DNA from: Chloroflexota bacterium
GTDB lineage: Bacteria > Chloroflexota > Anaerolineae > CG2-30-64-16
Length of the DNA: 16,409 nucleotides
Assembly: GCA_029555885.1 (NCBI GenBank)
Contig: JAKPQT010000031.1
Span: 1 to 16,409 of the forward strand
Reading direction: 5' to 3'
The translations under genes were made by a program, and so were the position numbers. Shown piece by piece: positions 2,503-16,197 of the stretch. The notes below the pieces were generated by a model. It ran no database searches and was not told where the DNA came from. It was given only the letters and a program-made list of their open reading frames with translations. How positions within the stretch are numbered: position 1 is the first letter of the stretch; every line of letters begins with the position of its first letter.

Positions 2503-5500
2503 ATGCCGCGTCCCCTGCGTGATTCGCTCTACATCTACGGCTTTCATGACCCCGGCGGTGAGCAGCATATGCTCGATCTTGGTGTGCCGGGCTGGGTGCT
2601 GGTCACTGAAGCCATCGGGTTCAACCCGACCGACCAAAGCGGCGCCGACTATCGCCGCTTCTCCGACCGTGACCTCGGCGTGATCGTCAGGCTGAACGCG
2701 GGCTACAATCCGACAGGCACGCTGCCGCCCAGCCAGTTCTACGCCGACTTTGCCCGCCGCTGCGCCAACTTCGTCCGCGCATCGAGCGGCGCCCATATCT
2801 GGATCATCGGCAACGAGCCCAACCATCCCATCGAATGGCCCGGCTCGGACTGGAACTGGAACCTGCCCTGGCCGCAGCCCAAGAGTCCCGACCGCCGCGG
2901 GGAGGAGATCACCCCTGCGCGCTACGCCGATGCTTACCGGCGGGCACGGGCCGCGATCAAGGCCGTGCCTGGGCACGAGAACGACCAGGTGCTGGTGGCC
3001 GGCCCCGCGCCCTGGAACATCCTGCTCACCTACCCCGGCAACCCGAACGGCGACTGGGTGTTCTACCTGCGCGATACCCTTGCTGCCATCGGCGGCTCAG
3101 AGGGCGCCCGCAACCTCGACGGCATCAGCCTGCACGCCTACACCCACGGCAGCGCGGCCGACCTGATCCGGTCCGAAGAAAAGATGGGTGACGCGCGCTT
3201 CGCCAACCGCCGCTTCCACTTCCGCGTGTACCAGGACTTCATGGCGGTCATCCCGGAATCTATGCGCCACCTACCCATCTATATCACCGAGTCCAACCAG
3301 GGCGACCAGGCATGGGAGAACCGCAACACCGGCTGGGTCCGCGCGGCCTATGGCGAAATCGATGCCTGGAACCGAGCAAACAGGGAGAAGATTCGCGCGC
3401 TGCTGCTCTACCGCTGGCCCCAGGTGGCAGGCGACCGGTGGGGCATTGACGGCAAGGCAGCGGTCATCGAGGATTTCCGGCAAGCGCTCGCCGCGCGCTA
3501 CCAGTGGGCAGTCGAGGAGGACGCCAGCGCGATCCTGGAGCGCAAGGTCAGCGAACTGGAGCAGGTTGCGGCAGCCCTGCAGCCCGCTATCGCGGCGCTG
3601 GCAGCACCTGTGGCCGCGGCCGCCCGGCTCCGCCAGGAGGCGGCGACGCTTGCGACGGAGGCATCAGGATTGCAGCCCACCGCGCTCCGTGCGCAGTATG
3701 ACGCGTTGGCCGCCCAGGTCAAGCAGTTGGAGGACGCACTCGGCGGCCTGCCGGAGGAACCAGGCGGACGGGTTCCCGAACCAAACATGATCGACAAGGT
3801 CGGCCAGCTGCCCACCGGCACGGCACCGCCCTATGGTCAGCGCAGCCTCGGTGCGATCCGCCGCATTGTCGTCCACCACACGGCCACACGCGACGATATC
3901 ACACCGGAGCGGCTGGCCGAAGCGCAGGTGGGCCAGGGCCGGCCCGGCATCACCTACCACTATCTCATCACCGGCGACGGGGCCATCTACGCAACGCAGG
4001 CTCTGGATGTCGTCCCGGCGCAGACGGGCAAGACCGGCATCAACCAGGAGAGCATCGGCATCGCGCTAGCAGGAAACTTCACCACGGCAGCGCCGCAGGC
4101 AGCGCAGCTTGCTGCGGCCGCCAACCTCATCGCCTGGCTGCTCAGCCGGTTCAGCCTCACAACGACTGAGGTCGTGGGCCGTCGCGAGCTGGAAAATGTC
4201 GCTTCGCCGGGCGCGCAGTGGCAGCAGGGGGCGGCCTTCAAGACGACGCTGCTGGTTCAGGTGCAGGCCATTCTCGATGCGTACCGGGATCCTGACGTAG
4301 TCATCGCGCAATTGCAGGCGCGCGTGCGCGAGCTGGAGGCGCAGAACGCCGGTCTCGCCGCGCAGGTCGGGCAGATCCCCGGTCTGGAGGCGCGCATCCG
4401 CCATTTGGAGGCTGCGAACGCGGAGCAGGCGGCAGAGATCAAGCGGCTGCGCGACCAATTGGCTGCGGGAACGCCGGGCCGCGTGGCGAAACCGGCCATC
4501 GTGGACCTGGTGGACAAGCTGCCCAAACATCCGACATTGCCGCCCTACGAGCCTCGCAGCCGCCCGATCTCCATGATCGTCATCCACCACACCGACACAA
4601 CCAAGACGACGACGGTGCAGAGCATCGCGCAATATCACGTCTACGGTGAGCGCCGTGACGCCAACGGCAACCTCATCAAGGCGCAATGGCCGGGCGTCGG
4701 CTATCACTTCCTGGTTGGAGCGGACGGCGTCATCTACCAGGGGCAGCGCGAATCGACCCGCTCCTACCACGTCGGGGGCGACCCCAACGACTACAGCGTC
4801 GCCATCAGCCTCATCGGCCGGATGATGACGAAGGACTACGACGGAACCACCCGCGCGCCCGAGGACCAGGTCCCGACGCCTGCGCAGCTTCGCAGCGCGG
4901 CGCACCTCGCCGCGTGGCTGATGCAGGAGTACAAGGTTCCGCTGGAGCGTGTGATGGGGCACCGTGACGTCTGGCCCAAGTCCACCGTCTGCCCCGGCGA
5001 ACACTGGAAGACCGGACGGCAGTGGTACGCCGACCTTGTCGAGGAGATCCAGGCCGTCCAGCAGGGGCGACCGGCCGCGGGCAGCATGGAGCACTACCTC
5101 CTGTTCTGGGACCGTGGCGGCAGCAACTGGGCACAGGCCGACTGGCGGAACGCGCAGGCCTACCTGGAGCACTTCCGCACGACCGCCGGCTTCTCCGTGG
5201 ACGATGCGCTTCTCGCCCGCCACGTGACCATCGTCGGCGGCGACGCAGGCGTGACGGGCGAAGACGAGGCGCGGTTGGCCGCGGCGGGGGTGGATGTGCA
5301 CCGGCTGGCAGGCACGGACGAGGCGGACACGCGGCGCCTGCTCAACCAGCTCGTCGCGCAGAACACGCCCTGGCCGGGCGCGCCTGCGCAGCCGCGCAGC
5401 GCGGTGGCCGGGCTCAGTCCGCGCATGGCGGCCGTGCAGGTCTTCATGGACGAGTTCCCCTTCCCCGATGAATGGACCATGCCGGATGACTGGCAGCCCC

Positions 5501-5649
5501 CGGCGCATGTGCCGGAGCCGGATCATGCACCGGGTCCCGAAAAGGTGATCGTCCCGCTGCCCGCTGCGCAGCCACCCGCGTCAGCCGAAGAGAACACCCC
5601 GACGCCGGACGGAGCTTCTGGCGCCGATGAGGCCGGGAAGGAGGCATAG
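2503..5649 (+). CDS. Modular protein: GH-A-like barrel, coiled coils, two PGRP/amidase_2 domains, CWB2-like C-terminal segment
   Basis: 1048 aa; GGAG at 2494-2497 supports ATG 2503. Residues 1 to about 340 look like a clan GH-A (beta/alpha)8 barrel, with candidate acid/base E105 in IIGNEPN and nucleophile E263 in YITESNQG. About 345-415 is coiled coil. About 425-595 is a PGRP/amidase_2 domain (HH at 458-459, then YHYLITGDGAIY). About 600-655 is a second, heptad-rich coil. About 665-855 is a second PGRP domain. Residues 862 to about 955 include VTIVGGDAGVTG and VDVHRLAG, reminiscent of a single CWB2-type wall-binding repeat, followed by a Pro-rich tail. The second PGRP has the zinc set expected of N-acetylmuramoyl-L-alanine amidases (H695, H820, C830). 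The first has R560/R561 and S568 at the last two positions and may only bind. A peptidoglycan-directed role is inferred. No signal peptide is visible, so its location is unclear. The next gene begins 4 nt later. Confidence 0.75.
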   Translation: MPRPLRDSLYIYGFHDPGGEQHMLDLGVPGWVLVTEAIGFNPTDQSGADYRRFSDRDLGVIVRLNAGYNPTGTLPPSQFYADFARRCANFVRASSGAHIWIIGNEPNHPIEWPGSDWNWNLPWPQPKSPDRRGEEITPARYADAYRRARAAIKAVPGHENDQVLVAGPAPWNILLTYPGNPNGDWVFYLRDTLAAIGGSEGARNLDGISLHAYTHGSAADLIRSEEKMGDARFANRRFHFRVYQDFMAVIPESMRHLPIYITESNQGDQAWENRNTGWVRAAYGEIDAWNRANREKIRALLLYRWPQVAGDRWGIDGKAAVIEDFRQALAARYQWAVEEDASAILERKVSELEQVAAALQPAIAALAAPVAAAARLRQEAATLATEASGLQPTALRAQYDALAAQVKQLEDALGGLPEEPGGRVPEPNMIDKVGQLPTGTAPPYGQRSLGAIRRIVVHHTATRDDITPERLAEAQVGQGRPGITYHYLITGDGAIYATQALDVVPAQTGKTGINQESIGIALAGNFTTAAPQAAQLAAAANLIAWLLSRFSLTTTEVVGRRELENVASPGAQWQQGAAFKTTLLVQVQAILDAYRDPDVVIAQLQARVRELEAQNAGLAAQVGQIPGLEARIRHLEAANAEQAAEIKRLRDQLAAGTPGRVAKPAIVDLVDKLPKHPTLPPYEPRSRPISMIVIHHTDTTKTTTVQSIAQYHVYGERRDANGNLIKAQWPGVGYHFLVGADGVIYQGQRESTRSYHVGGDPNDYSVAISLIGRMMTKDYDGTTRAPEDQVPTPAQLRSAAHLAAWLMQEYKVPLERVMGHRDVWPKSTVCPGEHWKTGRQWYADLVEEIQAVQQGRPAAGSMEHYLLFWDRGGSNWAQADWRNAQAYLEHFRTTAGFSVDDALLARHVTIVGGDAGVTGEDEARLAAAGVDVHRLAGTDEADTRRLLNQLVAQNTPWPGAPAQPRSAVAGLSPRMAAVQVFMDEFPFPDEWTMPDDWQPPAHVPEPDHAPGPEKVIVPLPAAQPPASAEENTPTPDGASGADEAGKEA

Positions 5650-5653
5650 CCGC

Positions 5654-7639
5654 ATGAACAAGCTCGGTTTCTATGTCGAAAACACGACGGTCCCCTTCCT
5701 GCGCGACGCGCTGCGCCAGGTCAAGCCGCCGGTCATGCTCATCCATGCGGGCGACCGCACGCTGCTCCAGCAGATACGGTCGGAGCTGTCGCCCGACACC
5801 TTCGTGATCGGCCGACTCTTCGTCAGCCTGGCCGAGCAGACCGCCTGGCTGACCGGCAGTGATCCCGATGGCGCCGGTACAGCGTTCGCCGACCGCATCA
5901 TCAACTATGACTTCCAGCTTGCCCAGCAGCGAGGGAGCAACAACCGGCTGCTCATCGATGCCTGGATGAGCCTGAATGAGCCGGTGCGCGGGCCCGCCTC
6001 CTTCTTCGACCGGCAGCCCAATGCCGAGACGCAGGCCCGCTACGCGGCGCTAGACCGGTTCCAGGTGGCGTTTTTGAAGCGGATGCGGAATGCGGGACTG
6101 GAGGCGGTTGCGCTCAACTTTGCGGCAGGCAACTTCACTGCGCGCGAGGATATCGTCCGGTGGTTCCCGCGCACGCTGGAGGCCTACACATACCTGGCCC
6201 TGCACGAGTACGGCTGGCCGACGATGATGCCGCGGGCGGGCACCGAAACCGCCTGCCTCTACTACCGCCCAGTGATGGACGGCATACGTGCTCAGCACGG
6301 CGACCGGCACAAGCTCATCATCACCGAGGCCGGGCTGGCGCGTATGTACAAGCACGCGACCGACCCGGCCGGCGACGTCGGCTGGCTCTATCGCGGGGAA
6401 ACGATCTCCGAGCAGCAGTACTGGGAGTCGCTGCAGTGGTACAACGCGGAGATGGTGCGCGATGATTATGTCATGGGCTGCTGCCTGTACCAGGTGGGGC
6501 ACGCCGGCCTGTGGGAAACCTTCCGTCATCTCGGGGTGGACAACGAACAGCGACCCATCCTGCTTATGAATAAGATCGAGACCCTGCGCACCACGCCGGC
6601 GCCTACACCTACACCGACACCTACACCGACGCCAACCCCAACGCCGGATAAGCGCGCCGAGCTGGTGGCGCGCGTCGCCGCGGTCCGGCAGGCGATGGCC
6701 GCGGCCGCAGGCCAGGTGGATGCCTTTACCGTTGCGCTGGCCGAGGCACATGCCGCACTGGACGGTCTAGCGGGCGCGACATTCGCCGCGCCGGGAGAGC
6801 AGGAGGTCCAGTCCCTCCTGGCGCAGCTGCAGCAGGTCTCGGCCACGCTGGACCGGCTGCCGGGCGACACGCCGCTCGACGTGCCCGCACTGCGCACGCA
6901 GGTGACCGAGCTGCGCACCGCGACCGAGCAACTCCTGGGCAGGGTCAAGGCACTGAGCGCATTCGACGCCCGGCGGCAGGAAGCGAGCCGGCAGACCCTC
7001 GCGTTGGACGGACAGGCCGCTGGCATCCGCAACGTCGGCCAGCAGGCCGGCGCGCTGGCGGCCCAAGCCGCCGCGCTCGCAGCAGAGCTGGGGCCGCAGA
7101 CGCCGCCTATCACGCCCGCGGGCCAGCCGCCGCTGCGCGACGTACGCACGACGCTGCCGGTCGCGACGGGCAGCGTCGTGCCGCAGCGCACATTGTCGGC
7201 CATCCGCCGCATCATCGTGCACCACACAGTCACGAGCAACGACGTGACGCCTGAGCGCCTCGCGACCGCGCAGATCGCGCGGGGGCAAGCGGGCATCACC
7301 TACCACTTCCTCGTGACCGGCAACGGCACGATCTACTGGACCCAACCGCTGGAGGCGGCCATCGAGCAGACCCTCGTCAACCAGGTCAACGCGGACGGCA
7401 TCGGGATTGCGCTGGCGGGCAACTTCCAGACAGCCGCACCGACGGCGCAGCAGCTCGATGCGGCAGCCGCGCTAATCGCCTGGCTGCTAGGCTGGCTGGG
7501 GTTGCCGGTCAACGCCATCTTCGGCCGCAACGAAGTGGACGCGCGGGTCGCTTCGCCCGGTGCGCAGTGGTCGCAGGGCGTCCGCTACCGCGACACGCTC
7601 ATCGCGGCCGTGTCCGCGTTCATGGCAGGCGCACAGTAA
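5654..7639 (+). CDS. Modular protein: GH-A-like barrel, Thr-Pro linker, coiled coil, degenerate PGRP domain
   Basis: 661 aa from ATG 5654, preceded by AAGGAGG (5638-5644). It is a shorter paralogue of the upstream gene and almost certainly co-transcribed with it (4-nt gap). Residues 1 to about 312 resemble a GH-A-type barrel with E109 in SLNEP and E225 in IITEAG. Residues 315-331 are an alternating Thr-Pro linker typical of extracellular modular enzymes. About 333-475 is Ala/Gln-rich coiled coil. About 485-661 is a PGRP/amidase_2 domain with HH at 523-524, YHFLVTGNGTIYW and GIGIALAGNF. The motif where a second His and a Cys ligand are expected reads GRNEVDARVASPGAQW (R625, N626, S634), matching the degenerate first PGRP of the upstream protein rather than its intact second one. 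Peptidoglycan or muropeptide binding is more likely than amidase activity. No signal peptide is seen, which sits oddly with the linker type. Confidence 0.72.
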   Translation: MNKLGFYVENTTVPFLRDALRQVKPPVMLIHAGDRTLLQQIRSELSPDTFVIGRLFVSLAEQTAWLTGSDPDGAGTAFADRIINYDFQLAQQRGSNNRLLIDAWMSLNEPVRGPASFFDRQPNAETQARYAALDRFQVAFLKRMRNAGLEAVALNFAAGNFTAREDIVRWFPRTLEAYTYLALHEYGWPTMMPRAGTETACLYYRPVMDGIRAQHGDRHKLIITEAGLARMYKHATDPAGDVGWLYRGETISEQQYWESLQWYNAEMVRDDYVMGCCLYQVGHAGLWETFRHLGVDNEQRPILLMNKIETLRTTPAPTPTPTPTPTPTPTPDKRAELVARVAAVRQAMAAAAGQVDAFTVALAEAHAALDGLAGATFAAPGEQEVQSLLAQLQQVSATLDRLPGDTPLDVPALRTQVTELRTATEQLLGRVKALSAFDARRQEASRQTLALDGQAAGIRNVGQQAGALAAQAAALAAELGPQTPPITPAGQPPLRDVRTTLPVATGSVVPQRTLSAIRRIIVHHTVTSNDVTPERLATAQIARGQAGITYHFLVTGNGTIYWTQPLEAAIEQTLVNQVNADGIGIALAGNFQTAAPTAQQLDAAAALIAWLLGWLGLPVNAIFGRNEVDARVASPGAQWSQGVRYRDTLIAAVSAFMAGAQ

Positions 7640-7654
7640 GGGCAGGAGAAATGG

Positions 7655-7776
7655 AACGCTGATAAACGCTGATCAAACTGATTTTTATGATTTTTCTTAT
7701 CATGTTCGATCAGTTCAATCAGGGCCAACCTTGTGTCAACCTCCGGTTGACACAAGGTTGGCCCATCATCAGCGTT
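7655..7776. repeat. Compound inverted repeat between amidase gene and lys promoter
   Basis: AACGCTGAT occurs twice (7655-7663, 7665-7673) and faces ATCAGCGTT at 7768-7776. Nested inside are AACTGAT/ATCAGTT arms around an AT-rich stretch (about 7676-7714) and the perfect hairpin at 7722-7764. Arms made of short tandem words are the pattern of the other intergenic repeats in this window. No gene is apparent between 7640 and 7868. Confidence 0.7.
7722..7764. repeat. Perfect 19-bp hairpin
   Basis: GGGCCAACCTTGTGTCAAC (7722-7740) is exactly complementary to 7746-7764 over the 5-nt loop CTCCG. No T-run follows on either strand, so it does not fit the intrinsic terminator model. It may still act as a transcription or mRNA-end boundary between the amidase genes and the lysine operon. 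Confidence 0.8.
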
Positions 7777-7810
7777 CTATTCCACCGTGTCCTTTCCCGA
7801 TTCCTGCGAT

Positions 7811-7838
7811 TTGACACATCGTCGCAACCGTGTATAAT
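7811..7838 (+). promoter_or_regulatory. Consensus sigma70-type promoter of the lysine operon
   Basis: Both hexamers are perfect, TTGACA (7811-7816) and TATAAT (7833-7838), with a 16-bp spacer. Transcription should start near 7845, giving a leader of about 397 nt before lysW. A strong constitutive-type promoter fits a design in which control is exerted later, by attenuation. Confidence 0.85.
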
Positions 7839-7868
7839 GCCGCCAACGTAACGGAGAGTACACGAAAT

Positions 7869-7952
7869 ATGCATCACCAAATGCTGTCCAAGTGCACCAA
7901 GTCCAAGAAGCCTTCCCTGGCCTGCAGGGACGGCCGCTTGTGCATGCGCTAG
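7869..7952 (+). CDS. Lysine leader peptide 1
   Basis: 27 aa from ATG 7869 to TAG 7950-7952. GGAGAG (7853-7858) lies 10 nt upstream of the ATG. Four Lys residues (8, 11, 13, 14; all AAG) fall in the seven-residue stretch KCTKSKK, ending in a Lys-Lys pair at 7905-7910. A 6-bp hairpin starts 4 nt after that pair, and a segment of the ORF (7919-7929) is complementary to the terminator downstream. This is the organisation of amino-acid leader peptides such as trpL or hisL, and the adjacent operon makes lysine. The inferred role is cis sensing of Lys-tRNA charging by ribosome stalling, with no function of the peptide itself. The reading frame, ribosome-binding site and pairings are directly visible; the mechanism is inferred. 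Confidence 0.85.
   Translation: MHHQMLSKCTKSKKPSLACRDGRLCMR
7893..7944 (+). promoter_or_regulatory. Attenuator 1: enclosing helix and protector hairpin
   Basis: TGCAC(C)AAG at 7893-7901, which includes a Lys codon, can pair with CTTGTGCA at 7937-7944 (8 bp, one bulged C). It encloses a local hairpin, TCCCTG (7914-7919) with CAGGGA (7925-7930). When no ribosome sits on the Lys codons these pairings occupy the antiterminator segment, so the terminator is free to form. A stalled ribosome would cover the 5' strands. Confidence 0.65.
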
Positions 7953-7990
7953 ACAGCTAACGCGAACCAGCACAGCAGCCCTGTCAGGCC
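7919..7990 (+). promoter_or_regulatory. Attenuator 1: antiterminator pairing
   Basis: GGCCTGCAGGG (7919-7929, inside leader ORF 1) pairs with CCCTGTCAGGCC (7979-7990): 11 base pairs with T7984 bulged. The downstream strand is essentially the whole 5' arm of terminator 1, so the two structures are mutually exclusive, as in classical attenuators. Confidence 0.78.
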
Positions 7991-8017
7991 CCAAGCGCCT
8001 GGCAGGGCATTTTCGTT
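7978..8017 (+). terminator. Attenuator 1: intrinsic terminator
   Basis: GCCCTGTCAGG (7978-7988) pairs with CCTGGCAGGGC (7998-8008) through 11 bp including one G-U. One more C-G closes a 7-nt loop. ATTTTCGTT follows (8009-8017). The T-run is short, so partial readthrough to the second attenuator is plausible. Confidence 0.75.
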
Positions 8018-8029
8018 AACGCATCATGC

Positions 8030-8055
8030 GCCGGCTGGTCTCCGACCGAGCCGGC
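8030..8055 (+). other. Spacer hairpin between the two attenuators
   Basis: GCCGGCTGGTC (8030-8040) pairs with GACC and AGCCGGC (8044-8047, 8049-8055): 11 bp, 3-nt loop, one bulged G. No T-run follows. It may insulate the two switches or position the ribosome-binding site of leader 2 at 8071-8076. Confidence 0.6.
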
Positions 8056-8080
8056 CCAAAGGTAAATCACGAGGGATCGC

Positions 8081-8146
8081 ATGTTCCACAACTTGAAGCG
8101 CGCTAAGAAGCAGTTGACCAGCTTGCCAGACTGGAGGTCTGGATAG
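8081..8146 (+). CDS. Lysine leader peptide 2
   Basis: 21 aa from ATG 8081 to TAG 8144-8146, with GAGGGA at 8071-8076 just upstream. Three Lys residues (6, 9, 10; all AAG) form KRAKK, again with a Lys-Lys pair (8105-8110). A 6-bp, 5-nt-loop hairpin (8126-8142) lies inside the 3' part of the ORF, the same stem and loop size as in leader 1. The peptide sequences themselves are not alignable beyond the Lys cluster, so conservation appears to be of layout rather than protein. The inferred role is a second, independent stall-sensing ORF for the same operon. It is less certain than leader 1 because the antiterminator reaches only the upper part of its terminator. Confidence 0.8.
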   Translation: MFHNLKRAKKQLTSLPDWRSG

Positions 8147-8159
8147 GCCGCTAGCGCGC
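8098..8159 (+). promoter_or_regulatory. Attenuator 2: enclosing helix and protector hairpin
   Basis: GCGCGCTA (8098-8105), spanning the last base of one Lys codon to the first base of the next, is perfectly complementary to TAGCGCGC (8152-8159). It encloses the hairpin CCAGAC (8126-8131) with GTCTGG (8137-8142). This repeats the nested layout of attenuator 1 with unrelated sequence. Confidence 0.7.
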
Positions 8160-8197
8160 ACCCTATGCCCGCAAAGCCCCTTCCGAGCCAGTCTGGC
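8125..8197 (+). promoter_or_regulatory. Attenuator 2: antiterminator pairing
   Basis: GCCAGACTGG (8125-8134, inside leader ORF 2) is perfectly complementary over 10 bp to CCAGTCTGGC (8188-8197). The latter forms the upper stem and loop of terminator 2. The pairing therefore excludes the upper terminator stem but leaves the lower nine base pairs able to form a pseudoknot-like alternative. Confidence 0.68.
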
Positions 8198-8212
8198 CGG
8201 AGGGGCTTTTTT
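8173..8212 (+). terminator. Attenuator 2: intrinsic terminator before lysW
   Basis: AAAGCCCCT (8173-8181) pairs with AGGGGCTTT (8201-8209). The stem continues through CCG/CGG and GCCA/TGGC with two single-base bulges (T8182, A8186), about 16 bp with a 3-nt loop. Six Ts follow (8207-8212). It sits 29 nt before the lysW ATG and is a strong intrinsic terminator by form. Confidence 0.85.
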
Positions 8213-8241
8213 ATGTCCAAACACTTATTGGAGGAAACACC

Positions 8242-8412
8242 ATGACGCTCGAAGTACTCTGCCCGGAATGTGAAGGCCCCGTTGAGCTGCGCGACCCGCT
8301 GCAAGGCGAGATCGTGCCCTGCCCGTCGTGCGGCGCGGACCTGGAGGTCGTCAGCCTGGACCCGCTGCGGCTCGAGCTGGCGCCGGAGGAAGAGGAGGAC
8401 TGGGGCGAATGA
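8242..8412 (+). CDS. lysW: Amino-group carrier protein LysW
   Basis: 56 aa, below most ORF-length cutoffs. GGAGGA (8230-8235) lies 6 nt before ATG 8242. It has the family's two Cys pairs (CPEC at residues 7-10 and CPSC at 27-30) that bind zinc, an acidic middle and tail, and the diagnostic C-terminal EDWGE. The last Glu is the attachment point: LysX joins the alpha-amino group of alpha-aminoadipate to its gamma-carboxyl, and LysZ, LysY and LysJ act on the carried molecule through the acidic surface of LysW. The codons for the acidic tail (GAG GAA GAG GAG) also supply the AGGAGG (8393-8398) that serves lysX, whose ATG overlaps the lysW stop (ATGA). It is the first gene after the tandem attenuators. 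Confidence 0.96.
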
Positions 8413-9431
8413 ACGCAACGTCTCCTTCGAATGGCAATGGCTCGTCTGGGGATGGCTCATCCACCGTGTTGAGCCGTACACCCGCTCAGGATGCCCACGG
8501 CTCCCGGCCGCGCGTGGCCGTCATCGTCTCCCGCATCCGCGTGGAAGAGAAGCTGCTGCTGCAGGCCCTTGAAATGACCGGCGCGCACGTCGAGGTCGTG
8601 AACGACGACAGCCTGGTGCTCCCCCTGCCCGCCGACGCCACCGTGCCCTTCCCCATCCGCGCCGATGTAGTGCTCGAACGTTCGGTCAGTGCGGCGCGCG
8701 GGCTCTATGCGCTGCGCCTGCTCGAACTGGCAGGCATTCCGACGGTCAACCGCTATGCCACCGCCGCGACCTGTTGGGACAAGCTGCTGACCACCGCCGC
8801 GCTCGCCGCGGCCGGTGTACCGCAACCCCGCACCCGCGTGGCCTTCACCCCGGAATCTGCGCTCGCAGCCATCGAGGAGCTGGGCTATCCCGCGGTCCTC
8901 AAGCCCATCGTCGGCTCATGGGGCCGCCTGCTCGCGCGCGTCAATGATCGGGACGCAGCCGAAGCCATCCTGGAGCACAAGGACGTCCTCGGCTCATACC
9001 TGCACAGCATCTACTACATCCAGGAATACATTGCCAAGCCCGGCCGCGATATCCGCGCCTTCGTCATCGGTGACGAGACCATCTGCGCTATCTACCGGGA
9101 CTCGGCCCACTGGATCACCAACACGGCGCGCGGGGGCGCGGCGAGCAACTGCCCGGTCACCCCGGAGCTGGACAGCTTATGCCGGATGGCTGCCCAAGCG
9201 GTCGGCGGCGGGGTGCTGGCGATCGACGTGCTCGAGGACCCGGATCGCGGCCTGCTGGTCAACGAGGTCAATCACACGATGGAATTCCGCAACAGCATCG
9301 CCACGACCGGGGTGGACATCCCCGGCCGCGTGGCGGAGTACGTTCTGCAGGTCGCGCGGGGCCTCACCCCCCGGCTCCCTCTCCTGATGGCGCATCAGGA
9401 GAGGGGGAGTTCACAGGGGGTGAGGTTATGA
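8409..9431 (+). CDS. lysX: LysW-alpha-aminoadipate ligase LysX
   Basis: 340 aa, ATP-grasp family. It joins alpha-aminoadipate to the C-terminal Glu of LysW with ATP. Visible motifs are [39 protein letters not shown] (K165), [27 protein letters not shown] and NEVNHTMEF (N285 region, metal and ATP binding), all nearly identical in form to Thermus LysX. Start 8409 overlaps lysW by ATGA. It gives an N-terminal Ser/Gly/Asn-rich extension of about 37 residues that Thermus LysX lacks; the core begins near residue 38. The C-terminus after VARG is encoded by the palindromic repeat at 9362-9425, so the last 20 or so residues are repeat-derived. It overlaps lysY by ATGA. LysX is preferred over ArgX because of the homocitrate branch in the same operon. 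Confidence 0.95.
9362..9425. repeat. REP-like palindrome spanning lysX end and lysY ribosome-binding site
   Basis: CTCCCTCTCCTGAT (9375-9388) pairs with 9394-9409 over loop GGCGC with a two-G bulge. An outer CCTCACCCCC/GGGGGTGAGG arm (9362-9371, 9416-9425) is also complementary. It shares words with the repeat at 41-99. It encodes the LysX tail, and its right arm supplies AGGGGG for lysY, so it has been built into both genes. Confidence 0.82.
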
Positions 9432-10477
9432 CAGCTGTCACCGTCTCCATCGCCGGCGGCTCCGGCTACGGCGGCGGGGAGCTGCTCCGCCTGCTGACTG
9501 GTCATCCCTGCATGACGGTCGGCCAGGTGACCTCCGAGTCGCACGCTGGAGATTATGTCCACAGCCTCCACCCGAACCTGCGACCGGTGGGTCGGCGGCA
9601 GGCCATCCGCTTCACATCGCTCAGCGAGCTGGCCCCCTGCGACGTCCTCTTCCTGGCCCTGCCGCACGGCGAGGCGCAGCGCCGCATCGACCACTTCGCC
9701 TCACTGGCCCCAGCCATCGTTGACCTGTCCGCCGACTTCCGCCTCCCCGACCCTGACGACTATGAGCGCACCTACGGCCATCCGCACGCTGCAGCACGCT
9801 GGCTGCCGCGCTTCGCCTACGGGCTGCCGGAGGCCAACCGCCAGGCCATCCGGGCGAGCCGCCACGTCAGCGGCGTAGGGTGCAACGCGACCGCGGCCAA
9901 CCTGGCACTGCTGCCGCTCGTGCGCGCGGGGCTGCTGCGGACCGACCGGCCCATCGTCGTAGACGTAAAGGCCGGGTCATCCGAGGGCGGCGCTTCGGCC
10001 AGCGCGGCCTCGCATCACCCGGAGCGTGCAGGCGCGGTGCGCTCGTTTGCGCCGACCGGCCACCGCCATGAGGCGGAGGTGCGCCGCGTGCTGGGCCGCG
10101 AGGATGTCTACCTATCGGTCACGTCCATCGAACTGGTGCGCGGGGTGCTGGCAACGGCCCACGCGTGGGTCGAACCGGGCGTGGCTGAGAAGGACCTGTG
10201 GCGTGCATACCGGGCGGCCTACAGCGCGGAGCCTTTTATTCGCATCGTACACGAGCGCGGGGGCATCTACCGCCACCCGGAACCGAAGCTACTGGCCGGC
10301 ACCAACCTGGCCGATGTCGGCTGGGAGTTGGACGCGGCGACTGGGCGGCTCGTCGCGCTGGCCGCGCTGGATAACCTGGGCAAGGGCGCGGCCGGCAGCG
10401 CCGTCCAGTGCATGAACCTCATGCTCGGCTGGGATGAGACCCTCGGCCTCGACGCATGCGGCCTGCACCCGGCCTGA
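9428..10477 (+). CDS. lysY: LysW-alpha-aminoadipyl-6-phosphate reductase LysY
   Basis: 349 aa, ArgC/LysY family, NADPH-dependent reduction of the acyl phosphate made by LysZ to LysW-aminoadipate semialdehyde. The N-terminus has the Rossmann motif [14 protein letters not shown]. The catalytic Cys is C152 in [16 protein letters not shown], and the conserved His is in [10 protein letters not shown] (H212). The substrate loop reads KAGSSEGGA, the LysY form rather than the SGAGR form of true ArgC. Start ATG 9428 overlaps the lysX stop. The upstream repeat provides the ribosome-binding site. The length is normal for the family and no defect is seen. A 119-nt repeat-filled gap follows before lysZ. 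Confidence 0.94.
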
Positions 10478-10596: not shown

Positions 10597-11499
10597 ATGG
10601 ACTCTATCGTAGTCAAAGTCGGCGGCGCAGCAGGCGTCGCAATCGAACCGGTTATCGAGGACCTGGCATCGCTCGTGCGCGAGGGCTGGCCCGTCGTGCT
10701 GGTGCACGGCACTTCCGCGGCAGCAGACGCGCTCGCGGCACGCATGGGCTTGCCCGTCCGCCACATCACCTCGCCATCGGGCCATGTCAGCCGCTACACC
10801 GACCCGGCCATGCTCGAGGTCTACGCGGCGGCTGCGGCGGGCGATGTCAACACCGCGCTCGTCGCGGACCTCCAGGGCGCGGGCTGCAACGCGCTGGGGC
10901 TGGCGGGCGTCGACGGCCGGCTGCTCGTCGCGCGGCGCAAGGACGCGGTACGGGCCATCGAAGCGGGCCGCCAGCGCATCATCCGCGACGACTTCACCGG
11001 CCAGCTCGAAAGCGCCAACGGCGAGCTGCTCCATCTGCTGCTCGTCGCGGGCTATACGCCGGTCATTGCGCCGCTGGCCCTGGGCCTGGGCGGTGAGCGG
11101 CTCAACGTGGACGGCGACCGCGCGGCCGCGCTGGTCGCCGGCGCGCTCGGCGCCTCCGCGCTGGTCATCCTGAGCAACGTGCCCGGCCTGCTGGCCGACT
11201 ATCCCGACGAAAACAGCCTGATCTCCCACATCGACCCAGCGCACCTGCCGATGGTGGAGGGTCTGGCGCAGGGCCGCATGAAGAAGAAGCTGCTGGCCGC
11301 ACGCGAGGCGCTCGCAACGGGCGTGCCCACGGTCATTCTCGCTGACTCGCGACGCTCCGAGCCTATCCGCGCCGCGCTCGCCGGCCGCGGGACGGTTATC
11401 GGCGACCAATTGAAGATTGAAGATTACAGATTGAAGATTGATAGTTTCGAATGGCAGGAGAGTCGGTTACAGGTCGAAAGTACGCAAGTTGCAGGTTAG
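10597..11499 (+). CDS. lysZ: LysW-alpha-aminoadipate 6-kinase LysZ
   Basis: 300 aa, amino acid kinase (ArgB-like) family. It phosphorylates the side-chain carboxyl of LysW-bound aminoadipate. AGGAG at 10587-10591 supports ATG 10597. Visible are IVVKVGGAAG (nucleotide/phosphate site), VLVHGTSAAADALA, GHVSRYTDPAMLEVY, NALGLAGVDGRLL, LNVDGDRAAALVAGALGA, LSNVPGLLADYPDE and AQGRMKKKLLAA, all in the LysZ pattern. The Thermus-like core ends at about GTVIGDQ. The remaining roughly 27 residues (LKIEDYRLKI onward) are translated from the left arm and interior of an inverted repeat, giving an unusual charged tail of no expected function. The next gene starts 74 nt after the stop. Confidence 0.94.
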   Translation: MDSIVVKVGGAAGVAIEPVIEDLASLVREGWPVVLVHGTSAAADALAARMGLPVRHITSPSGHVSRYTDPAMLEVYAAAAAGDVNTALVADLQGAGCNALGLAGVDGRLLVARRKDAVRAIEAGRQRIIRDDFTGQLESANGELLHLLLVAGYTPVIAPLALGLGGERLNVDGDRAAALVAGALGASALVILSNVPGLLADYPDENSLISHIDPAHLPMVEGLAQGRMKKKLLAAREALATGVPTVILADSRRSEPIRAALAGRGTVIGDQLKIEDYRLKIDSFEWQESRLQVESTQVAG

Positions 11500-11625
11500 C
11501 AATGACCCTCCTGCCTTGACCGGCCTCACCGAATGTGCTCGCCGGCTTTGCCAACCGTGAAAGGATAGAAGACATGTCCATCAACATAACTCAACTACAA
11601 TCTTCAATCTTCAATCTTCAATCTG
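11409..11625. repeat. Inverted repeat with ATTGAAG tandem arms across lysZ-lysJ
   Basis: The left arm 11409-11441 has four ATTGAAG-like 7-mers; the right arm 11598-11625 has four of the complementary CTTCAAT type. The arms lie inside the two genes: the left encodes the LysZ tail and the right encodes residues of the LysJ N-terminus. The stop of lysZ and the ribosome-binding site and start of lysJ are in the loop. Confidence 0.85.
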
Positions 11626-12791
11626 AAATGGTGCGTTCGGAGGTGGCCCACACTTCGGGCGTCTATCCGAAGCGACCGCTGGCGATCGTGCGCGGGGAAG
11701 GCGCGCGGGTGTGGGATGACGAGGGCCGCGAGTACATCGACTGCGTAGGCGGCCAGGGCGCGGCCAACCTCGGCCATGCGCACCCGGCGATCGTCGCCGC
11801 GCTGAGCGAGCAGGCCGCCCGCCTCATCTCCTGCCCGGAAATCTTCTACAACGATCGCCGCGCCGAGCTGCTGGCCAGGCTGACAGAGGTCGCGCCGGAG
11901 GGACTCGACCGCGCGTTCCTGTGCAACTCCGGCACGGAGGCCGTCGAGGCCGCGCTCAAGTTCGCACGGCTGGCAACGGGGCGCACAGGCGTCGTGGCTG
12001 CTATGCGCGGCTTCCACGGCCGCACGATGGGTGCGCTCTCCGCGACCTGGCACCGCGACTATCGAACGCCCTTCGAGCCGCTCATCCCCGGATTTTCCCA
12101 CGTCCCCTATAACGACCTGGGGGCGCTGGAGCAGGCAGTGACCGACGACACCGCGGCGGTCCTGCTGGAACCCGTGCAGGGCGAGGGCGGCGTCCACCCG
12201 GCCGCGCCGGGGTATCTCGCATCGGCGGCAGAGCTGTGCCGCGAGCGGGGCGCGCTGCTCATCCTGGATGAGGTGCAGACGGGCTTCGGGCGCACAGGGC
12301 GGCTCTTTGCGTGCGAGCACGACGGCGTTACCCCGGACCTGCTGGCCGTCGCGAAGTCGATGGCCGGGGGCGTGCCGATGGGCGCGTGTCTCATCGGGCC
12401 GCGCGTGGGCAGGCTGGCGCCGCTCAGCCACGGCAGCACGTTCGGCGGCAACCCGCTTGCCTGTGCGGCCGGCCTTGCCACGCTCGACATGCTGACCCGC
12501 GTCGATCCGCTCACCGGCGAGACCCTGCCCCAGCGCGCGGCGCGGCTCGGCGGGTGGCTGGTAGATGCCATCCGCAGCCTGGACGCACCGTCCGTACGTG
12601 AGGTACGCGGTCGCGGTCTCCTGGTCGGCGTGGAGCTGCGCAGCAAGGTGACGCCCGTGCTCCAGCAGCTTCAGGCGCTCGGCGTCCTGGCGCTGCCTGC
12701 CGGCATGACGGTGCTGCGCCTCCTGCCGCCGCTGCTCATCACCGAAGACGAGCTCGCACGCGTCGTCGACGCCCTGCGCGAGGTGTTATAG
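11574..12791 (+). CDS. lysJ: LysW-lysine aminotransferase LysJ
   Basis: 405 aa, class III (ArgD/acetylornithine-type) PLP aminotransferase. It converts LysW-aminoadipate semialdehyde to LysW-lysine with glutamate as donor. Motifs: GVYPKRPLAIVRGEGARVW at the family N-terminus, NSGTEAVEAALKFAR (PLP phosphate), ILDEVQTGFGRTG, and VAKSMAGGVPMGA with the Schiff-base K261. I chose ATG 11574 because GAAAGGA (11559-11565) precedes it. GTG 11535 is further upstream without better support. ATG 11628 gives the Thermus-like natural N-terminus but has no ribosome-binding site. The 18 residues between 11574 and 11628 include IFNLQS-type sequence from the repeat arm, so they are a repeat-derived extension. 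A 106-nt repeat follows before hcs. Confidence 0.93.
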   Translation: MSINITQLQSSIFNLQSEMVRSEVAHTSGVYPKRPLAIVRGEGARVWDDEGREYIDCVGGQGAANLGHAHPAIVAALSEQAARLISCPEIFYNDRRAELLARLTEVAPEGLDRAFLCNSGTEAVEAALKFARLATGRTGVVAAMRGFHGRTMGALSATWHRDYRTPFEPLIPGFSHVPYNDLGALEQAVTDDTAAVLLEPVQGEGGVHPAAPGYLASAAELCRERGALLILDEVQTGFGRTGRLFACEHDGVTPDLLAVAKSMAGGVPMGACLIGPRVGRLAPLSHGSTFGGNPLACAAGLATLDMLTRVDPLTGETLPQRAARLGGWLVDAIRSLDAPSVREVRGRGLLVGVELRSKVTPVLQQLQALGVLALPAGMTVLRLLPPLLITEDELARVVDALREVL

Positions 12792-12897: not shown

Positions 12898-14058
12898 ATG
12901 TCCTTACAGGATTACTCGATCATCGACTCGACCCTTCGCGAGGGCGAGCAGTTCATCAACGCACAATTCACGACCGAACAGAAGATGCGGATCGCGGCCG
13001 CACTGGACGAATTCGGCGTGGAATACCTGGAACTCACCTCGCCCCAGGCCTCGCCGGGCAGCCTGGCCGACCTGCGCACGATCGCGGGCATGGGGTTGCG
13101 CGCCCGGATACTGACCCACATCCGCTGCCACCGGGACGATGCACAGGTCGCGCTGGAGGCCGGCGTGCAGGGCGTGGATGTGGTCATCGGCACGTCTTCC
13201 CGCCTCCGCCAGTTCAGCCACGGCAAGAGCATCGACGAGATCATCGAAACGGCAGCGGACGTGCTGCCGTGGATCCGCCGCCAGTGTCCCGATATCGAGC
13301 TGCGCTTCAGCACGGAGGACTCGTTCCGCAGCGAGGAAGCGGAGCTACTGCGCGTATACCTGGCCGTGGACCGGCTGGGCGTGGTCAACCGGCTGGGCAT
13401 CGCAGACACCGTCGGCATCGCGTCGCCATCGCAGGTGTCCCGGCTGGTCGGCACGCTGCGCCGGCTGACGCACTGCGACATCGAATTTCACGGGCACAAT
13501 GACTCCGGCTGCGCAATTGCCAACGCGTTCGCCGCGCTCGAAGCAGGCGCGACGCACATCGATACGACCGTCCTGGGCATCGGGGAGCGCAACGGCATCA
13601 CGCCGCTCGGCGGGTTCGTCGCGCGCATGTACACCCACGACCGGGCCACCACGCAGCGCAAATACCGACTGGACCACCTGCGCCGGCTCGACATGATGGT
13701 GGGCGAGATGGTGAACGTGGATATTCCCTTCAACAACTATGTCACGGGCTTCAGCGCGTTCACCCACAAGGCCGGCATCCATGCCAAGGCTATCCTCAAT
13801 GCGCCGGAGACCTACGAGGCCCTTGACCCGCATGACTTCGGCCTGACGCGCTACATCTCGATTGCGCACCGGCTCACCGGCTGGAATGCGGTCCGCGCGC
13901 GCGCGGACCAGTTGGGCCTGGCCCTCTCCGATGCGCACGTAAAGGCGCTGACCCAGCACATCAAGGTGCTGGCCGACGAGCACGCGCTGACGCTGGACGA
14001 CGTGGACAACCTGCTCCGCAACTGGGGCAACGGACGGCGTGAAGAGGTGACAAGGTGA
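12898..14058 (+). CDS. hcs: Homocitrate synthase
   Basis: 386 aa, DRE-TIM metallolyase family. It condenses 2-oxoglutarate and acetyl-CoA to homocitrate, the committed step of the AAA route. [12 protein letters not shown] near the N-terminus gives the catalytic Arg (R14) and metal/base region. [16 protein letters not shown] has the metal-binding His pair (H198, H200). [25 protein letters not shown] and [10 protein letters not shown] follow as in Thermus homocitrate synthase, which is 376 aa. These features and the lys operon setting separate it from 2-isopropylmalate synthase. AAAGG at 12885-12889 supports the start. The last residues (REEVTR) and the stop codon come from the left arm of the GGTGACAA repeat. 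Confidence 0.93.
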
Positions 14059-14199: not shown

Positions 14200-16197
14200 A
14201 TGGGTGCAACATTCGTACAGAAATCTCTCGCCCGAGCGGCGGGGCTGGCGGCAGTCGAAATCGGCCAGATTGTCGACGTGCAGCCGGATATCATTCTGAG
14301 CCACGACAACACGGCGGCGATTGCCCGGCTGTTTGCAAGGCTGGGCCGCGGCCGCGTGAAGAACCCGGACCGCCTGGCGATCACACTGGATCATGCAGTG
14401 CCCGCGCCGACCGCGGAACATGCAGCCAACCACGCGGAGACGCGGCGGTTCGTGGCCGAACAGGGCGTCACGCATTTCTTCGAGGTGGGTCGCGGCATCT
14501 GTCACCAGGTCCTGAGCGAGGAGGCCCTGGTGCTGCCCGGCCAGCTCGTCCTGGGGGCAGACAGCCACACGACACATTTCGGCTGGCTCGGCGCCCTCGG
14601 TGCGGGCATCGGCCGGAGCGAAGTCGCCGCGCTCTGGGCGACCGGCGAGCTGTGGCTGCGCGTGCCGGAGACGATCCGCGTGGACCTGACCGGCGCGCTC
14701 CGGCCGGGCGTGACGGCCAAGGACCTGAGCCTATGGCTGCTCAAGCTGCTGGGGCCGGAGGCGGGCATCTATCGGGCGCTGGAGTTCGGCGGGCCGGGGC
14801 TACGCACCCTTAGCCTGGAGAGCCGCATGGTCATACCGAACATGATGGCAGAGGCCGGCGCGAAGAGCGCCTGGCTGGAGCCGGACGAGGCCGTGTTCGA
14901 CTGGCTGGCGGAGCGCCGCGCGGCACGGACGGGCATATCTCATGAGGCGTGCCGCGCCGACATCGCGGCGAGTGCGCTCTCTCCCGACGACGACGCGACC
15001 TATCTGGCGCGCTACACGCTGGACCTGTCCGCGCTGGAGCCTGCTATCTCCCGCCCGCACAACCCGGCGGATGTCGTGCCGCTATCGGAGGTCGCCGGGA
15101 CGCGCGTCGACCAGGCATTCATCGGCACTTGCACGAACGGCCGGCTGGAGGACCTCGCTGCAGCCGCCGCCGTGCTGCGCGGACCGAGCGGGCAGGTGCG
15201 CCGCGTCGCAGCAGGCACCCGCCTCCTGGTCATCCCCGCATCGAGCGAAGTGCTGCAGGCCGCGCTGAAAGCCGGTTACATCGCCACGTTCCTCGCCGCG
15301 GGCGCGATGCTCGGCACGCCCGGCTGCGGCCCGTGCATGGGCAACCACCTGGGCATTCCTGCGAACGGCGAGACGGTCATCAGCACGGCCAACCGCAACT
15401 TCCGCGGCCGGATGGGCAACCCCGAGGCAGCCATCTACCTCGCCAGCCCCGCGGTCGTTGCGGCGAGCGCGGTGCTGGGGCGGATCGGGACGATTGAAGC
15501 TGGAAGCTGGAAGCTGGAAGCTGGAAACCCGATAGGTGGAGCTGTGCTGCGCACGCAAGCCGAGGACTCGAACGTTAGCTGGCAAGCAGCTGCTCCTGCT
15601 CTAAGCCCCGATATCTCACGGGCTCCAGCCCAACATGCACGTCCCAACTTCCAGCGTCCAGTTTCCAGCGTCCAGAGTCCAGCTTCCAGCTTTCAGCTTC
15701 CAGCTTCCGTGATCGACGGCCGCGCCTGGTGCTACGGCGACGACGTCAACACCGACGTTATCTTCCCCGGCAAGTACACCTACACGGTCAAAGACGAGGC
15801 CGAGATGGCCCGGCACGCACTGGAGGACCTGGACCCGACGTTCGCGGCAAACGTACAGCCGGGCGACGTGATCGTGGCGGGCCGCAACTGGGGCTGCGGC
15901 TCCAGCCGCGAGCAGGCTGCGACGAGCTTGCGCGCGGCGGGCGTGCGTGTTATCATTGCGCAATCTTTCGCACGCATCTTCTTCCGTAACGCTGTCAACA
16001 ACGGCCTCCTCCCCGTCGTCTGCCCGGAGGCGGTTGCGGCTATCCAACCCGGAGAGCCTGTCACCGTCTTCCTTGATCGCTGCATCGTGCGCTGCGCAGC
16101 CGGCGAGTTCCCGTTCCCGCCCCTCTCGCCCTCGGTTGCGGCCATCCTGGATGCCGGCGGGCTGCTCCCCATGTTGCGTGGATCGGAGCTGCCATGA
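14200..16197 (+). CDS. hacAB: Homoaconitase, large and small subunits fused
   Basis: 665 aa from ATG 14200, preceded by AAGGGGGG. The in-frame start at 14095 would begin inside the repeat. It converts homocitrate to homoisocitrate through cis-homoaconitate with a [4Fe-4S] cluster. Residues 1 to about 430 are the large (LysT/HacA, LeuC-like) subunit: [24 protein letters not shown] (C311), [10 protein letters not shown] (C376, C379) and RNFRGRMG. From residue 504 the small (LysU/HacB, LeuD-like) subunit follows: [49 protein letters not shown]. In Thermus these are separate genes. Here a repeat-derived stretch (about 432-503) reads through and joins them. GTG 15709 (residue 504) is exactly where a separate small subunit would start but has no ribosome-binding site. 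Isopropylmalate isomerase activity is the alternative; context favours homoaconitase. It overlaps the next gene by ATGA. Confidence 0.9.
15496..15708. repeat. Inverted repeat with GGAAGCT tandem arms inside the homoaconitase ORF
   Basis: The left arm 15496-15527 has four GGAAGCT-type 7-mers. The right arm 15646-15708 has a longer series of complementary AGCTTCC and GCGTCCA/GAGTCCA words. The whole element is in frame and encodes the linker between the two homoaconitase subunits, ending exactly at GTG 15709. No clear target-site duplication is visible. Confidence 0.88.

Follow-up and report, generated by a model that had tools for sequence, protein, structure and literature searches.

The window, the whole 16,409-nt stretch of Chloroflexota DNA analyzed here, carries two putative attenuator units and, downstream of both, the gene row lysW-lysX-argC-lysZ-lysJ-homocitrate synthase-homoaconitase, which by its profile matches is an operon of the LysW-type lysine pathway:

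8242..8412, + strand: lysW, amino-group carrier protein (TIGR01206, 71.1 bits, cut-off 53.2)
8409..9431, + strand: lysX (TIGR02144, 345.6 bits, cut-off 275.6)
9428..10477, + strand: argC/lysY-type reductase (TIGR01850, above cut-off)
10597..11499, + strand: lysZ, [LysW]-aminoadipate kinase (NF010659, above cut-off)
11535..12791, + strand: lysJ/argD-type aminotransferase (TIGR00707, above cut-off; the LysJ model NF042418 gives the top score, yet below its own cut-off)
12898..14058, + strand: homocitrate synthase (TIGR02146, above cut-off)
14200..16197, + strand: homoaconitase-type protein, a single ORF for both the large and the small subunit (TIGR01343 and TIGR02087, both above cut-off; PF00330, PF00694)

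The closest LysX match to the window in the genome collection, at 85%, is that of Chloroflexi bacterium ADurb.Bin325 (L001). Upstream of the operon, at 2503-7639, are two overlapping ORFs with Amidase_2 domains, the first of which contains two such stretches. Between the amidase gene and the promoter there is also an inverted repeat of 18 perfectly matched bp around a 7-nt loop (7722-7764), perhaps a terminator or a mobile repeat.

The features ahead of lysW, in order along the strand, are:

7811..7838, + strand: sigma-70-type promoter, TTGACA-16-TATAAT, a 12/12 match
7869..7952, + strand: leader ORF 1, 27 aa, MHHQMLSKCTKSKKPSLACRDGRLCMR; AAG codons at 7890, 7899, 7905 and 7908, the Lys clusters being kept in relatives
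7911..7933, + strand: unit 1 protector hairpin, 7911-7919 with 7925-7933, immediately 3' of the last Lys codon
7920..7929, + strand: unit 1 antiterminator strand, able to pair with 7979-7989, the 5' arm of terminator 1
7978..8013, + strand: predicted intrinsic terminator 1, hairpin 7978-8008 and then ATTTT; 12 bp, -24.2 kcal/mol
8081..8146, + strand: leader ORF 2, 21 aa, MFHNLKRAKKQLTSLPDWRSG; GAGG upstream, AAG codons at 8096, 8105 and 8108, a KRAKK-type motif in relatives
8098..8159, + strand: unit 2 outer stem, 8098-8105 with 8152-8159, containing Lys codons
8126..8142, + strand: unit 2 inner hairpin, 8126-8131 with 8137-8142, mutually exclusive with the antiterminator
8125..8134, + strand: unit 2 antiterminator strand, GCCAGACTGG, able to pair with CCAGTCTGGC at 8188-8197 within terminator 2
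8173..8212, + strand: predicted intrinsic terminator 2, hairpin at about 8173-8209, U-run 8207-8212; -25.5 kcal/mol

The earlier note on this DNA had placed a single consensus promoter ahead of both units, and this holds: apart from the 12/12 match at 7811-7838, nothing in 7500-8500 looks like a promoter (shuffles 0.4). Of 19 related leaders, the window included, 18 have a promoter scoring 9/12 or better directly upstream of unit 1, and in 14 of them it is a 12/12 match; in L094 the match before unit 1 is 6/12 only. A promoter between the units was considered as well and rejected, none of at least 9/12 being present in the 15 loci long enough for the scan (three inter-unit stretches were too short, and L009 is without unit 2). 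The same note had given each unit its own ribosome-binding site, which is true of leader 2, where the GAGG makes a good one, and less so of leader 1, where a GGAG lies 12 nt from the ATG, a poor spacing, and where several relatives have no clear ribosome site. In the minimum-energy fold, the stretch around the ribosome site of leader 1 (7847-7857) pairs with the U-tract past terminator 1 (8010-8021).

Lys makes up 4 of the 27 residues of leader 1 and 3 of the 21 of leader 2, an approximately ninefold enrichment, because the operon proteins hold 1.43% Lys and the upstream proteins 1.71%. The idea that the operon proteins are Lys-poor as an adaptation was rejected on the comparison of these last two values (p 0.49). 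The U-tract of terminator 1 is broken in the window (ATTTTCGTTA); L001 has seven T in a row. A simple terminator scan returned terminator 1 only, terminator 2 being absent from its output, and its count was no higher than in shuffles (mean 1.0); the case for the terminators therefore rests on sequence and energy analysis together with conservation.

The region 7811-8212 very probably acts as two ribosome-mediated attenuators of transcription in tandem, with lysine as their signal. Transcription would begin at the one promoter and would have two terminators to pass before lysW, and at each of them a ribosome would be reading a short Lys-rich leader. In a presumed shortage of Lys-tRNA, the ribosome would stall at the AAG codons, the antiterminator would form, and RNA polymerase would read on; with enough lysine, both terminators would presumably act. 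In unit 1, the stalled ribosome would mask the 5' arm of the protector, so that 7920-7929 would be free for the 5' arm of the terminator. In unit 2, a stalled ribosome would leave 8125-8134 free to pair with 8188-8197, and a ribosome at the stop codon would mask 8125-8134. Because the antiterminator of unit 2 takes up the loop and upper part of terminator 2 and leaves the base alone, it may hinder that terminator without excluding it. With two such tests in series, the read-through fractions would multiply, giving a tighter shut-off and a steeper response. This reading draws on the anatomy of the region, on its conservation, on compensatory changes in the alternative pairings, and on a folding model.

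For the model folding, the nascent RNA was folded with the ribosome footprint masked, and a count was made of the base pairs that the emerging terminator forms with RNA upstream of it; the results are equilibrium estimates with assumed footprints. In unit 2 (17 sequences, L006 left out), a stall at the last Lys codon gives 19.5 pairs against 6.6 for a ribosome at the stop codon. The difference, +13.0, is positive in 17/17 and compares with 2.2 for shuffled spacers (0/30); it is 8.1 at an earlier transcript end (positive in 16/17) and 14.7 at a later one (17/17), with 0/20 for the shuffles at each. At the earliest transcript end, unit 2 of the window itself gives 9.3 pairs for stall and 10.5 for stop. 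In unit 1 (19 sequences), a stall gives 11.0 pairs against 5.5 for ribosome-free RNA; the mean gain of +5.5 compares with 0.5 in shuffles (0/30), individual gains exceeding 0.5 in 13 of the sequences and being absent from the other 6. Across three transcript ends, both this contrast and that of unit 2 keep their direction. Stall minus stop shows no difference beyond shuffles in this unit (+1.8 versus 1.7, 12/30), and at two later ends it is under 20/20 shuffle replicates (0.6 versus 2.3, and -0.1 versus 2.1), so that the stall-versus-stop test fails for unit 1 at all three transcript ends; the window's own unit 1 gives 9.8 for stall and 11.0 for stop. If unit 1 does respond to stalling as proposed, it would need ribosome release after the stop codon, or kinetics beyond the model. 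The switching by ribosome position that had been suggested for both units is thus reproduced in part: unit 2 tells stall from stop, and unit 1 tells stall from ribosome-free RNA, but not stall from stop. By these model estimates, unit 2 has the better support as a switch and unit 1 the weaker.

The ribosome-free default in the model leans toward a closed unit 1 and a unit 2 that is open once its terminator loop has emerged. At three transcript ends, untranslated unit 1 forms 5.5, 7.6, and 5.3 pairs, fewer than the shuffles at each (8.7, 9.3, and 8.4), and untranslated unit 2 forms 8.4, 16.7, and 16.5, more than the shuffles at the two later ends (9.9 and 7.7). One explanation, possible though doubtful, is that the leaders sense different states: unit 1 would open on translation plus a stall, unit 2 would close on completion of its leader, and the pair would separate lysine shortage from general translation failure. 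This has to contend with the earliest end of untranslated unit 2, which is not above the shuffles (8.4 versus 8.8), and with loci that break the pattern, namely L002, L005, and L089 for unit 2 and L002, L005, L007, L090, L094, and L099 for unit 1; the pattern itself comes from an equilibrium model only.

The proposal of a tandem attenuator for lysine, whatever each leader senses in detail, can also be evaluated by comparison with relatives, for which unit 1 was aligned in 19 rows (alignment A2) and unit 2 in 18 (A3). In the unit 1 antiterminator, 91.5% of cells are paired, 4 cells are changed on both sides (0/500 shuffles), and the covariation score is reached in 0/500; the number of changed pairs stands at 35/500 and that of pair types at 333/500, the latter not significant. 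In the unit 2 antiterminator, 90.8% of cells are paired, 8 are changed on both sides (1/500), and the covariation score is again 0/500, with neither changed pairs (294/500) nor further pair types (321/500) significant against shuffles. Of the measures used, these two counts, changed pairs and pair types, suffer least from kinship; the shuffles leave relatedness in. For terminator 1, with 88.4% of cells paired and 13 changed on both sides (0/500), the two counts stand at 10/500 and 96/500. Swapping partners between species weakens both antiterminator helices, the true pairing being reached in 0/2000 swaps for unit 1 and 3/2000 for unit 2. Covariation does not go beyond shuffles in the unit 1 protector (498/500; 92.3% of cells paired in 19 sequences), and the covariation score is not significant in the unit 2 inner hairpin (108/500; 81.1% of cells paired, 138/500) or in the unit 2 outer stem (136/500; 82.3% paired, 0/500). 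Slid registers sometimes outscore the protectors, the outer stem, and the unit 1 antiterminator (0.109 versus 0.075 at register +1 of the last), though far fewer cells pair there. Comparison with relatives had been named in advance as a check on the proposal, and its outcome was favorable: Lys codons and pairing are kept in both units, and compensatory changes are present in both antiterminators.

Units were also counted mechanically, a unit being defined as a Lys-dense ORF of 9-45 aa followed by a hairpin terminator within 110 nt. Leaving out 8 loci without recognizable lysW and 12 duplicates, 110 loci (L001-L110) and the window yielded 91 distinct leaders, of which 89 passed a minimum of 250 nt of upstream sequence, excluding L012 and L096, and were scored: 46 had no unit, 16 one, 25 two, and 2 three. 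In the 19 nearest leaders (the window and its 19 best LysX matches minus the truncated L096, a group defined after the units were noticed), the detector found two Lys units in 15 and one in 4, and two Lys units in 0/19 reverse complements and 0/95 shuffles. Two complete Lys-leader units in series before lysW, the central observation of the earlier note, are thereby confirmed (15/19 leaders versus 0/114 controls). Among the remaining 70 leaders, 12 had two or more units, against 0/70 reverse complements and 1/350 shuffles. With the detector run over all 20 amino acids, two or more units were counted in 15 of the 19 leaders for Lys, 5 for Arg, 4 for Leu, and at most 2 for any other. Arg as a co-signal (cf. 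KRAKK) was left aside (two or more Arg units in 5/19 versus 15/19 for Lys).

By visual inspection, both units are present in 18 of the 19 nearest leaders. In L003, the detector had assigned terminator 2 to a spurious overlapping ORF, and the true leader 2 is MTTNFKRAKKQADYPPDCVWIGR. The four leaders with a detector score of one were also inspected by eye. L006 has both units, its 51-codon leader 2 exceeding the detector's length limit; L007 has both, with two Lys codons only kept in leader 2; in L008, unit 1 is displaced upstream by about 770 nt and is followed by a LysE-family gene; and L009 has unit 1 only. The next LysX match past the 19, L100 (71%), has no unit.

Several of these leaders are natural variants of the arrangement. 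Leader 2 of L006 (L006:496-651) is 81 nt longer than that of L002 between KRAK and KKQ, with the frame open throughout (51 aa); the gain contains a 78-nt palindromic repeat, for which, counting itself, the same genome has 42 matches and a relative 21. The open frame through this insertion argues for translation of the leader. In L008 (L008:969-1923), the units, each still complete, are separated by a gene for a LysE-family exporter (PF01810); because the units precede different genes of an apparent single operon, transcription would be tested once before the exporter gene and twice before the lysine genes. In L009 (L009:4596-4797), an orphan second terminator is found at -65 to -28 from lysW with no Lys leader, possibly a stage of decay.

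Covariance models of unit 1 (R1) and unit 2 (R2) were run on 20 genomes, with up to 150 candidates scored in each. Matches at E up to 0.01 were obtained for R1 in 19 genomes and for R2 in 18, G009 having no unit 2 match. Strong matches to R1 and R2 were confined to one site each per genome among the up to 150 scored candidates, and in the genomes that supplied training loci they sit ahead of lysW. G013 and G015 were the only two genomes contributing no sequence to the models. In G013, the promoter, both Lys leaders, and both terminators were recovered, the contig ending before the gene; in G015 there was neither an R1 or R2 match nor a LysX match at E up to 1e-80. Five weak matches elsewhere (E 0.0005-0.006) had no Lys ORF among the scored candidates, and two further matches were on the opposite strand at known sites; weaker sites may have escaped the 150 candidates per genome. 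R1 also weakly finds unit 2 in four genomes, and R2 finds unit 1 in five (E 2e-7 to 0.008), suggesting an origin of the pair by duplication; shared constraints are another possible reason for these cross-matches.

If the units arose in this way, only one of them might still regulate, the other being a decayed or constitutive relic of the duplication. The single unit and orphan terminator of L009, the single-unit leaders of other relatives, the interrupted U-tract of terminator 1 in the window, and the lack of a stall-versus-stop difference for unit 1 in the model are all consistent with this. A relic would be expected to decay, however, and both units are seen by eye in 18/19 loci, with Lys codons and matched antiterminator partners kept in each (19 and 18 sequences), so that this reading appears improbable. 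Elements such as lysine riboswitches, T-boxes, and protein-bound leaders frequently precede amino-acid operons; that the leader is one of these is nevertheless very improbable, as it is ORFs bearing Lys codons that are conserved and no Rfam family matches at gathering score. T-box, lysine riboswitch, and other Rfam families were rejected on the absence of any gathering-score match in the window. With the limit relaxed to E up to 10, the stretch 7640-8260 has 9 matches, none of them to a T-box or a lysine riboswitch. Finally, although DNA of every kind commonly contains short ORFs and 1/95 shuffles of the 19 leaders did give single units, a chance collection of ORFs and hairpins in GC-rich intergenic DNA can be dismissed, given the conservation, the compensatory changes, the recovery in G013, and the absence of paired Lys units from all reverse complements and shuffles of those leaders. 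By these comparisons, the region holds a real, conserved tandem of predicted lysine leader-peptide attenuator units.

On a LysX tree of 91 rows (midpoint-rooted for drawing only), one Chloroflexota branch comprises 33 rows with support 100/94. Two or more units are present in 26 members of this branch, one in 5, and none in 1, with 1 unscored; among the other 58 rows, 45 lack units, 9 have a single one, 3 have two or more, and 1 is unscored. As a label on the tree, "two or more units" requires 8 changes, against 24.6 when shuffled (0/500). Labels were assigned by hand for L006, L007, L008, and L031; in the last, the first counted unit resembled a piece of coding sequence, and the leader was reset to one unit before the tree was made. 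In the next 40 places of the LysX match list, 24 leaders had no unit, 4 had a single unit, and 1 had two, besides 10 duplicates and 1 without lysW, and the tandem is thus mostly confined to one branch. Within that Chloroflexota branch, as far as leader sequences can tell, the arrangement is common to the whole, and conservation of the pair in so many relatives suggests a conserved double lock on lysine production.

A more specific version of this proposal can be put forward tentatively: a lineage-wide serial attenuator composed of two related but mechanistically different leader-peptide switches reading the same charged tRNA, unit 1 closed unless there is a Lys stall and unit 2 open unless its leader has been finished. 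These would form an AND gate for lysine shortage with a multiplied dynamic range, and would have come about by duplication and divergence of one unit.

How do these leaders compare with known systems? The lysine genes of Thermus, which belong to a LysW-type pathway, are reportedly controlled by attenuation at a single Lys leader peptide; pathway and kind of leader would then be alike, with a single unit there and two here.

Classical attenuators of the trp/his type, according to the excerpts of PMC3641672 and PMC9413887, have one leader ORF per operon. The window shares with them end-product codons in a short ORF, alternative hairpins, and a terminator ahead of a biosynthetic operon; unlike the systems in those excerpts, it has two leaders for the same amino acid, the signal being, putatively, lysine. 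As for their distribution, the available part of a 2010 survey gives leader-peptide systems as known only in Proteobacteria and Actinobacteria, apart from ermC, and then adds Firmicutes (PMC2965389), and Chloroflexi are named, in the excerpted portion of PMC4833913, only as too thinly sampled to judge. Among the matches listed for the open-licence literature, no lysine attenuator, nor any leader-peptide attenuator, in Chloroflexota was found, nor was any tandem of leader peptides for the same amino acid, which is weak evidence of absence.

Leaders with more than one element do have precedents. The Salmonella mgtCBR leader, as described in the excerpted text of PMC3641672, contains two short ORFs with ATP and proline (charged tRNA) as signals, and its stem-loops are unlike intrinsic terminators; two different signals of that kind were not found in the window, where both leaders are Lys-rich, judged by codon content only. 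The double T-boxes of Firmicutes, in the available portion of PMC9413887, likewise stand in tandem ahead of amino-acid genes, and a sharper response has been proposed for them; they bind uncharged tRNA directly and have no leader ORF, whereas the window units have leader ORFs. ErmB has two leader peptides (PMC8274638, in the part available).

A further likeness is to the mefA/msrD macrolide operon, in which, as excerpted from PMC10314930, two leader-peptide attenuators follow one promoter and respond to the same compound, forming a "double-lock" for msrD. One promoter and two units, putatively for a single signal, recur in the anatomy of the window, and the intervening gene resembles the case of L008. 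That operon, in the same excerpt, senses erythromycin rather than charged tRNA, and mefA lies between its units, whereas those of the window are adjacent. The suggestion that a double version had not been described can accordingly be kept in narrower form: no tandem of leader peptides on one charged tRNA was found in the open-licence literature, but mefA/msrD and the double T-boxes, as far as those sources were available, are serial precedents with a shared signal. By analogy, the lysine tandem would work like mefA/msrD without being its relative. If this is true, evolution has turned one of the oldest known RNA switches into logic in series and has kept it across a bacterial branch, and the variants found in nature (with both units, with only one, with an exporter gene between the two, with a repeat-bearing leader) make the value of a second, identical test directly measurable: in the depth of shut-off, in the steepness of the response, and in noise.
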